Below, piece after piece: positions 2,227 through 4,800 of a DNA stretch of 64,000 nucleotides. Location of the stretch: assembly GCA_024742665.1 (NCBI GenBank), contig JANSYA010000005.1:186001-250000 (forward strand). Direction: 5' to 3'. Below the pieces are notes generated by a model. The model saw only the letters and a program-made list of their open reading frames with translations, did not search any database and was not told the DNA's origin. This DNA is from a bacterium. GTDB taxonomy: Bacteria > Spirochaetota > Leptospiria > Leptospirales > Leptonemataceae. The position numbers and the translations under genes are program-made. Every line of letters starts with the position of its first letter. Position 1 is the first letter of the stretch.

Positions 2227-2266
2227 CGAAACGGAATAGATCACGTATTGGATCTATTCCGTTTCG
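2227..2266. terminator. Perfect 16-bp inverted repeat between convergent genes
   Basis: Positions 2227-2242 and 2251-2266 are exact reverse complements (16 bp) with an 8-nt loop. The hairpin sits between the convergent DUF4349 gene and the DsbA-like gene and overlaps the last codons and stop of the latter. No good U-run follows on either strand, so it may be a 3'-end stabilising or Rho-assisted terminator rather than a classical intrinsic one. Confidence 0.6.
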
Positions 2267-2919
2267 GGAACCAGTTCCACTTCCCGATTCAAGATCATCT
2301 GCACGCGCTGCTTCAATTCCACGTACGGCAAAAATCCCCGCGATACGAGAATGTGCTTTTCTTCTTCGCCCTCGACCTCGCGCAGAACCAGCGTCGGATA
2401 TCCGTTGATGCCGAAAGCCCGGGTCAGCTCGAAATTCTGACGGGTGATCGTTTCCGTTTCCGGATCGTCGTACAGCCGCCGAAATTCCTCGCGATCCAGA
2501 CCCGCGGCCACGGCGGCCGCCTCGAAGGTCTCGACTTTTGTGGGATCCTGGCCTTCGCCGTAGAATAGCCTCTGGAGTTCGTGCTGGAACTGCATGGGCC
2601 GCGGAGACTCCCCGCGTCCTGCAGCGACCACAGCCCGGCAGGCCGGCGCGGTATTGTAAATGAAATCGGGATGGCTTTCGAAGAAGGCGAAGTGGAACGG
2701 TCGCCCGGAAGCCTCATGCACCGCTTCCCAGTGATGAGAAATCTCCTGCGCCATTTTTTGCGGCAGCGGTCGCTCTTCGTCCGGACGCAGTCCGCCCAGA
2801 ATCATCTGCAGGGGCATACGCTCGGAATACTCCGCCTGCAATTCTTCGATGGCCGGCCCGAAGCCGTAGCACCAGCTACACATGGGATCGCTGAAGTACA
2901 TCAATTCGTATTCGGTCAT
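2254..2919 (-). CDS. DsbA/FrnE-family thioredoxin-fold oxidoreductase
   Basis: This 221-residue protein belongs to the DsbA-like group of FrnE and 2-hydroxychromene-2-carboxylate isomerase relatives. MTEYELMYFSDPMCSWCYGFGP places the CxxC pair at Cys14-Cys17, and a helical insertion follows. The cis-proline strand GINGYPTLVL lies near residues 172-181. There is no signal peptide, so it is likely a cytosolic dithiol/disulphide oxidoreductase or chaperone. I chose the ATG at 2919 because it is preceded by agggagttttt, a strong ribosome-binding site; the longer reading frame to 2997 adds a non-conserved basic leader. It is divergent from the ferredoxin-cyclase-reductase fusion, with about 105 bp between starts. 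Confidence 0.8.
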   Translation of the reverse strand: MTEYELMYFSDPMCSWCYGFGPAIEELQAEYSERMPLQMILGGLRPDEERPLPQKMAQEISHHWEAVHEASGRPFHFAFFESHPDFIYNTAPACRAVVAAGRGESPRPMQFQHELQRLFYGEGQDPTKVETFEAAAVAAGLDREEFRRLYDDPETETITRQNFELTRAFGINGYPTLVLREVEGEEEKHILVSRGFLPYVELKQRVQMILNREVELVPETE

Positions 2920-3024
2920 AAAAACTCCCTTTCTGTTCCGGCTTGCATGCTTACATTCAGACACAAATAACGTTCCAGGGATACACAGTTTCCGCAAAAA
3001 CCCGCCACCGAGCCCGATTTACCC

Positions 3025-4800
3025 ATGATTAAGATCCAATACGAAAACGAAACGACCATCGACAACGCCGATCCGACGCAGACCCTGCTGGAAATATCGC
3101 TCCAGAATAATATTCCCCACGTGCACGCCTGCGGCGGCCATGCCCGCTGCTCCACCTGTCGCGTCGCCGTAACTCAAAATCTGGAGAACTGCGAACCGCG
3201 TAACGAAGCCGAATGCACGCTGGCGAAATCCAAGGGCTTCGCGCCCAAGATCCGCCTGGCATGCCAGACCAGAGTGACCGGTCCGGTAACGATCCGACGC
3301 CTGGTAATCGACGACGAAGATTTACGCGACGCTTCCGAAACTTTGAATAGCGGCCGCGAAAAACAGCTGGCAATTCTGTTCAGCGATATTCGCAGCTTCA
3401 CGCCCTTCACCGAAAAGAATTTGCCGTACGACGTCGTGCACGTTATGAACCGCTACTTCCGTCGCATGGGAGATTCCGTGCAGCGCTACAACGGCTACAT
3501 CGATAAATATATCGGCGACGGGCTGATGGCGCTCTTTGGTCTGAACGACGACACCATCAGCGATCTCGAAGTGACTTCAGACGAACAGCTCGCCGCACAC
3601 GCCCGGCGCGCCTGTCGCGAGGCGGTGCTCGCGGCCCTGGATATGCAGAAGGAACTGGTCGAAGTCAATCGTTACCTGCACCATCACCTGGATCATGAAT
3701 TTCAAATCGGCGTCGGCATCCATTTCGGCGATGTGATCGTCGGCGACATGGGCCACCCCGATAAACGACAGTTCACCGCCCTGGGCGACAATGTAAATAC
3801 CGCCAGTCGGATCGAGTCGGTTACCAAGAAAGCCGCGGTGCCCCTGCTCATTTCCCAGGAAGTGCATTCCATTCTCGAAGACGACCTCACGGTTCATAAA
3901 AGATTTAGTACGAAACTCAAAGGCAAGTCGGGGGACTATCGCCTGTTTTCTGTCACCGAGGTGCGCGATCCCGAAGCGGGACAGCGTACCGCCCCGACTC
4001 CCGTCACAGCCGCTCCGCAAGCAAGCTCTGCGCCCGCGGCTGCGAAGGCCCCGCAACCGATGGCTCTGCGCCGCAGCGATCTGCCGATTCTGGAAGTCCG
4101 CCGGGTCGCCGAAGACACGCTCGCGTTTTTACTGGATACGAGCAGCCTGCCGGACTTCGAATTCGTGCCAGGCCAGTACGTGAACGTTCGGATTCCCGGC
4201 GTCGAGGCGGCCCGCATCTTTTCGATCGCCTCGGCCTCGCGGATCAAAGACTTTATATTGATCGCGACACGCATCCGTCAGAGCGAATACAAGCAGCGCA
4301 TGCAGGCTCTGGAGCCCGGCGACACGCTGAGCGTCGGCGATCCGGAAGGCGAATTCGCTCTGCCCGCCGACGCGGCGCAACCGGTGGTCTTTATCGCCGG
4401 CGGCATCGGCATTACGCCCATTCGTTCGATGATTGAAGAAATGGTCGAAACGCAGGTCGATCGCCCGATTCTCTTATTTTACGCGAATCGCACGCCGGAG
4501 GCGGGGGCCTTCGTGGCGGAACTGAACGAATGGCTCGGTCATATGCCCAATACCAGCTTCGTGCCCGTTTACTCCCGGGCGGACGCTCCGGGAGCTGAAC
4601 GCGGGCGACTGTCCGGAGAGATGATTCAAAAACACGTAGATTCTTTTAAATCGATGTTAGCTGATAAATCTCTGACAGGCGATCCACTGTACTACGTGGT
4701 CGGTCCGGACGCAATGACTCTCGACACGGTCGGTATGCTGGAGCAATCGGGCGTGCCGTCTGATCGGATTGTGCTCGAAGCATTCTACGGTTACCGCTAG
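3025..4800 (+). CDS. Ferredoxin - class III adenylate cyclase - FNR-type reductase fusion
   Basis: The 591-residue protein joins three complete modules. Residues 1-93 are a plant-type [2Fe-2S] ferredoxin with cluster cysteines C36, C42, C45 and C80 (CGGHARCSTC...RLAC). Residues 112-320 are a class III nucleotide cyclase. Its metal aspartates are D121 (FSDIRSF) and D165 (YIGDGLMA), the purine-specifying lysine is K247, T251 sits where class IIIb enzymes replace Asp, and N258 and R262 are the transition-state pair. A Pro/Ala linker (322-355) leads to a ferredoxin-NADP reductase-like unit (360-591) with the FAD motif RIFSIAS, the pyridine-nucleotide motif IAGGIGITP and the C-terminal aromatic end EAFYGYR. 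It probably makes cAMP in response to redox state or electron flow from NAD(P)H; that coupling is inference. No membrane helix is seen. Confidence 0.85.
   Translation: MIKIQYENETTIDNADPTQTLLEISLQNNIPHVHACGGHARCSTCRVAVTQNLENCEPRNEAECTLAKSKGFAPKIRLACQTRVTGPVTIRRLVIDDEDLRDASETLNSGREKQLAILFSDIRSFTPFTEKNLPYDVVHVMNRYFRRMGDSVQRYNGYIDKYIGDGLMALFGLNDDTISDLEVTSDEQLAAHARRACREAVLAALDMQKELVEVNRYLHHHLDHEFQIGVGIHFGDVIVGDMGHPDKRQFTALGDNVNTASRIESVTKKAAVPLLISQEVHSILEDDLTVHKRFSTKLKGKSGDYRLFSVTEVRDPEAGQRTAPTPVTAAPQASSAPAAAKAPQPMALRRSDLPILEVRRVAEDTLAFLLDTSSLPDFEFVPGQYVNVRIPGVEAARIFSIASASRIKDFILIATRIRQSEYKQRMQALEPGDTLSVGDPEGEFALPADAAQPVVFIAGGIGITPIRSMIEEMVETQVDRPILLFYANRTPEAGAFVAELNEWLGHMPNTSFVPVYSRADAPGAERGRLSGEMIQKHVDSFKSMLADKSLTGDPLYYVVGPDAMTLDTVGMLEQSGVPSDRIVLEAFYGYR

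Follow-up and report, generated by a model that had tools for sequence, protein, structure and literature searches.

Why an adenylate cyclase should share one polypeptide with a ferredoxin and a flavin reductase, and whether electrons passing through these partners might control the formation of cAMP, is the question raised by a gene in the window, i.e., the whole stretch of 64,000 nucleotides analysed here. The preliminary description placed ferredoxin, class III cyclase and FAD/NAD(P) reductase (FNR) in this order on a single chain. This stands. The frame runs from an ATG at 3025 to a stop codon at 4798-4800 with no internal stop, and four Pfam domains follow each other as Fer2, Guanylate_cyc, FAD_binding_6 and NAD_binding_1 (Table 1). 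Third-position GC is coding-like across all three domains.

Table 1. Coordinates of the fusion gene, its parts, its divergent neighbour and a paralogue (positions in the window unless a locus is named)
Feature	Position	Strand	Remarks
Ferredoxin-class III cyclase-FAD/NAD(P) reductase, complete gene	3025..4800	+	single open frame, 591 aa
[2Fe-2S] ferredoxin domain, res 1-86	3025..3282	+	Fer2 res 9-85, E 5e-9 (Pfam)
Cluster ligands	C36 3130-3132, C42 3148-3150, C45 3157-3159, C80 3262-3264	+	
Ferredoxin-to-cyclase linker, res 87-112	3283..3360	+	position of cyclase transducer element
Class III (IIIb-type) cyclase catalytic domain, res 113-302	3361..3930	+	Guanylate_cyc res 111-302, E 2e-25
Cyclase residues	D121 3385-3387, K161 3505-3507, D165 3517-3519, T251 3775-3777, N258 3796-3798, R262 3808-3810	+	
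Linker, res 303-352	3931..4080	+	part Ala/Pro-rich; length varies among relatives
FAD-binding domain	4081..4356	+	FAD_binding_6 res 354-444; RIFSIAS 4213-4233
NAD(P)-binding domain	4390..4719	+	NAD_binding_1 res 456-565, E 1e-15; GGIGITP 4399-4419; VGP (CGP position) 4699-4707
DsbA/FrnE-like thioredoxin-fold gene	2254-2997	-	divergent; longest frame begins 27 bases from fusion start codon
Paralogue, ferredoxin-cyclase-class I heme peroxidase	L014 1423-3288 (G000:C9)	+	622-codon frame

The three domains of the window protein

The cluster cysteines and the catalytic set of the cyclase are both complete. The four cysteines have the spacing of [2Fe-2S] ferredoxins, C-x5-C-x2-C-x34-C, and a bound [2Fe-2S] cluster is predicted. 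In an alignment of 60 ferredoxin-cyclase proteins C36, C42, C45 and C80 are invariant (60/60), the distance from C45 to C80 is 35 residues in every protein, and that from C80 to the first metal-binding aspartate of the cyclase, D121, is 41-49 residues throughout. The intervening linker is conserved in its first half (L93 in 55/60 cores, V94 and D96 in 47/60 each, D99 in 49/60) and again at G110 (54/60) and E112 (48/60). Class III cyclases are mostly controlled from the N-terminal side, and residues 87-112 may act as a transducer.

The cyclase carries, on one chain, the two aspartates, the Lys-Thr pair and the Asn-Arg pair of class IIIb. The roles were assigned by motif alignment to known class III residues: D121 and D165 bind metal, K161 and T251 select adenine, N258 is the transition-state asparagine, accompanied by R262. 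Among the 60 cores D121, D165 and N258 are invariant (60/60) whichever module is attached; R262 is found in 59, T251 in 52 and K161 in 43 of them. Because of the Lys-Thr set ATP is the predicted substrate, and the protein is predicted to make cAMP from it. The nearest solved relatives are the class III cyclases Cya2, CyaB and the photoactivated cyclases (PACs), and the modelled domain matches the fold of solved Cya2, CyaC and CyaB. Cya2, the nearest, is titled a guanylyl cyclase and has Glu aligned with K161. In part of the family, the globin forms and some module-less cores, K161 and T251 are substituted (by N, Q or D and by A or S, respectively). Such members may prefer another nucleotide; since K161 is replaced in 17/60 cores, use of ATP is not required of every member.

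A 'complete FNR unit' had also been described, and this holds in part. GGIGITP in the NAD(P) domain is intact, both Pfam domains are matched and the flavin motif conforms to R-x-[YF]-S. The motif, RIFSIAS, has however Phe in place of the usual Tyr, and the catalytic Cys of the C-terminal CGP is replaced by Val (Ala, Val or Ser in relatives). R-x-F-S is found in 11 of 12 complete FNR-type proteins. Loss of the CGP Cys does not disqualify an FNR-type reductase because E. coli Fre lacks it as well. FAD_binding_6 passes narrowly (21.7 bits versus a cut-off of 21.1), and with Phe for Tyr and the absent Cys this means that the flavin may be loosely bound or hydride transfer slow. The closest solved structures are BenC (1krh) and MmoC (1tvc), both single-chain ferredoxin-FNR reductases. 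They share with the window protein the order ferredoxin, FAD domain, NAD domain; in the window protein, in contrast, a cyclase separates the two halves, the CGP Cys is missing and Phe occupies the flavin motif. Further, the window ferredoxin with its C-x5-C-x2-C pattern goes with the cyclase core and not with BenC. From cyclase to flavin motif the distance among FNR-type proteins is 114-139 residues. Structure prediction from a thin alignment reached a pLDDT of 61 overall, with values below 50 for the ferredoxin and for residues 319-348.

A common core with exchangeable modules

That ferredoxin-cyclase fusions are already known is borne out by Beltz et al. (2016; PMC4821796), who describe membrane class IIIb adenylate cyclases in which a ferredoxin is positioned between a cytochrome-b-like 6TM anchor with two predicted hemes and the catalytic domain, e.g., R. 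palustris Q132R4. The window protein shares the order ferredoxin-cyclase and the core, the ferredoxin being directly N-terminal to the cyclase. It differs in the lack of a membrane anchor, as it begins with the ferredoxin at residue 1, and in its C-terminal FNR. Because the anchor is absent and the core alone is common to both, the window protein falls outside the membrane cluster (cluster 1) as delineated there. In the passages of Beltz et al. that were consulted, forms with FNR, peroxidase, YceI or globin are not mentioned, and no publication on these forms was found in the open-access literature, most subscription journals being outside the scope. The FNR fusion is a class III cyclase and, beside the membrane form already known, a further form of ferredoxin-coupled cyclase.

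The 60 aligned proteins share a fixed core of about 300 residues, extended at one side by a domain-sized module or not at all. C-terminal modules are FNR, class I heme peroxidase, YceI and globin. The peroxidase form occurs in ten spirochaete genomes and one Planctomycetota genome (L125). In one of the ten (G020) the peroxidase-type gene (L061 3458-4955, minus strand) is split into two overlapping frames, a frameshift or an assembly error. In the genome of the window, G000, the FNR form coexists with a peroxidase form, L014. The peroxidase module of L014 has cytosolic APX as its best match (E 2.5e-35). It keeps the distal R..xH and proximal GAH.xG motifs of class I heme peroxidases (ascorbate and cytochrome c peroxidase), yet is fused to a ferredoxin-cyclase and has Phe in place of the distal Trp. 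YceI is C-terminal to the ferredoxin-cyclase in four genomes (L053, L054, L059, L060), its best solved matches being T. thermophilus TT1927b and polyisoprenoid-binding proteins. Globin is C-terminal in three Bacteroidota genomes (L117, L118, L119). Other genomes, too, possess two cores that differ in their module: in genus g3 the pair consists of a peroxidase and a YceI form, in genus g2 of an FNR and a TM form.

At the N-terminus, four ferredoxin-cyclases carry a Cys-rich DUF2769 segment (L024, L121, L122, L123), which might bind metal or a second cluster. Others have a TM anchor, in which up to 6 TM-like segments stand out on plain hydropathy analysis. An alphaproteobacterial ferredoxin-cyclase (Phyllobacterium L107) has an anchor homologous to the one in the class members; for anchors of this kind two hemes were predicted by Beltz et al. 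Compared with PDB sequences the Phyllobacterium anchor gave no significant match, so heme binding by the anchor rests on Beltz et al. Many cores, above all those of Planctomycetota, lack a module, so a fused donor is not essential.

The core is thus combined with four or more kinds of module other than FNR, most of them redox-related. This calls for a revision of the picture in which the cyclase sits in the very middle of an electron-transfer chain, with one half on either side: to judge from the sequence comparisons, ferredoxin and cyclase go together as an old core present in several phyla, to which the FNR is one exchangeable addition among several. The pattern suggests a plug-in enzyme family converting redox state to cAMP.

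A search for the three-part architecture across genomes, proposed at the outset, proved productive. It is present in 13 of the 48 genomes searched in the class, distributed over 7 genera and 3 families; twelve copies are complete and one (G009, L066) is cut by a contig end. Because of this recurrence the fusion is neither an artefact nor a chance event. At a threshold of E <= 1e-42, ferredoxin-cyclase matches were obtained in 37 of the 296 genomes of the phylum. Among 72,556 plasmid records none matched the FNR, peroxidase or YceI form with 80% cover. A scan of genome contigs with a single protein retrieved only unrelated cyclases and one FNR, and two further genome searches, in groups too small or too poorly chosen to be informative, gave zero matches.

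Since bare and membrane cores are widespread, the comparison supports joining of the FNR to an older ferredoxin-cyclase core. Insertion of a cyclase into a BenC-like reductase is the less likely origin, given that the core exists without FNR in several phyla. In the core tree, with an unsettled backbone, the YceI forms and the globin forms each constitute one clade. FNR forms and peroxidase forms are not single clades in the best tree (4 and 5 changes), but a one-clade constraint is not rejected for either (AU p 0.40 and 0.18, respectively). The tree of the FNR domains likewise has no firm branching. Gain as well as loss of the same module is possible. At one locus (L006) a core-only gene is divergent from a free FNR gene; as the two are on different contigs in a congener, this is weak evidence for a split gene.

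Proposed redox control of the cyclase and the alternatives

The reading which we prefer, and hold to be somewhat probable, is that of a soluble adenylate cyclase which answers to the redox state of a [2Fe-2S] cluster on the same chain. The cluster would be fed from NAD(P)H via the FNR, and the enzyme would belong to a family with a fixed core and exchangeable modules. It would probably be a homodimer. NAD(P)H would reduce the flavin of the C-terminal unit; from there electrons would pass to the ferredoxin cluster at the N-terminus, whose redox change would be transmitted through the conserved linker to the cyclase. The sequences show the domains, the residues and their joint conservation, the recurrence of the fusion and the exchange of modules, whereas cofactor occupancy, the path and direction of the electrons, the sign of regulation and the input sensed by each module are inferred. 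cAMP would then report the NAD(P)H/NAD(P)+ state or the flavin-accessible electron state. The comparative evidence makes the gating of cAMP formation by electron flow, as put forward in the preliminary description, appear more likely, because the core is fused to several mostly redox-related modules while cluster and catalytic residues are always kept together. The short, conserved linker to the cyclase and the variable linker to the FNR fit a mobile FNR donor and a rigidly coupled ferredoxin. No cyclase directly controlled via electron transfer by an Fe-S cluster was found in the searchable open-access literature. The flavin-based photoactivated adenylyl cyclases OaPAC and bPAC have a related class III catalytic domain and cofactor-controlled cAMP synthesis, yet they use a BLUF photoreceptor where the window protein has an electron-transfer chain.

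A broader proposal, on which we are nearly evenly divided with a slight lean towards doubt, is that the core might be a general electron-to-cAMP converter with at least five inputs: NAD(P)H by FNR, H2O2 by the class I peroxidase, an isoprenoid, perhaps a quinone, by YceI, O2 or NO by the globin, and respiratory-chain electrons by the 6TM anchor with its predicted heme. Some bacteria would operate two of them in parallel, and the window gene would be the NAD(P)H channel. If such module swapping is true, one common output stage would translate the states of NAD(P)H, peroxide, quinone and oxygen into cAMP, and the proteins could serve in the laboratory as cyclases with redox control already built in. 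With a soluble, single-chain cyclase that has its own NAD(P)H reductase, redox control is testable by spectrometer and cAMP assay.

Other explanations draw on the same domains. Not the redox state but the integrity of the cluster may be the signal: apo- and holo-ferredoxin would set the cyclase, O2, NO, peroxide or iron shortage would damage the cluster, and FNR, peroxidase and globin would protect or repair it. Peroxidase and globins are indeed among the modules, and the peroxidase-type gene L014 has a divergent Ferritin-family neighbour (L078 3836-4435). A core-only gene from another genus (G007) has two neighbours in common with the L014 locus and a Ferritin-family gene on each side. Such neighbours in two genera lend modest support to an iron or peroxide context, including stress. 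We nevertheless consider signalling by cluster integrity unlikely, as the FNR and the membrane cytochrome serve electron transfer rather than protection and the cysteines are spaced as in ordinary stable ferredoxins. Quite unlikely, in our view, is direct control of the cyclase by the FNR, through binding of flavin or NAD(P)H or through flavin photochemistry, the ferredoxin being a separate structural or older input. The FNR does follow immediately C-terminal to the cyclase, the solved structures closest to the cyclase include flavin-regulated BLUF PACs, and spirochaetes are reported to possess photoactivated cyclases (references in PMC9043183). But the FNR linker is long and variable. The ferredoxin, moreover, occupies the N-terminal side, the usual side of control, and the cluster ligands are never lost in the 60 cores.

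The FNR, being of the BenC/MmoC type, might also form with the ferredoxin an ordinary NAD(P)H-dependent reductase for an oxygenase or another partner, the cyclase being independent or merely co-localised, or ATP or cAMP might regulate electron transfer. A convergent MPAB/Lcp-type oxygenase gene does adjoin the fusion. This neighbour was, however, not found at the other FNR-type loci compared, and the same core exists without FNR or with quite different modules, which renders an ordinary reductase improbable. A degenerate or misassembled chimera without function has nothing in its favour except the slightly unusual flavin motifs; recurrence in 7 genera with conserved residues and an intact frame with coding-type third-position GC in the three domains rule it out for practical purposes. 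Among the FNR-type loci compared no neighbour common to all was found. Only in the window and in G005 (L072 7486-8307) does the fusion have a DsbA-family gene beside it, at 34% identity.

Cyclic nucleotides in the host genome

The genome G000 (6.0 Mb) has an unusually large set of stretches related to cyclic nucleotides: matches to the class III cyclase family number 68, those to cNMP-binding domains 29. These numbers imply extensive cyclic-nucleotide signalling. The 29 cNMP-binding stretches would be receivers for the cAMP formed, which is in favour of the redox-controlled cyclase. cAMP governs motility in a related spirochaete, Leptospira kobayashii, where a light-dependent cyclase acts on swimming within one second (PMC9043183). 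The host is taken to be a spirochaete, perhaps from the Leptospira/Turneriella/Leptonema side. FlaA, the spirochaete-type flagellar sheath protein, is present in G000 and in 12 of 12 relatives searched, and in 0 of 14 control genomes.
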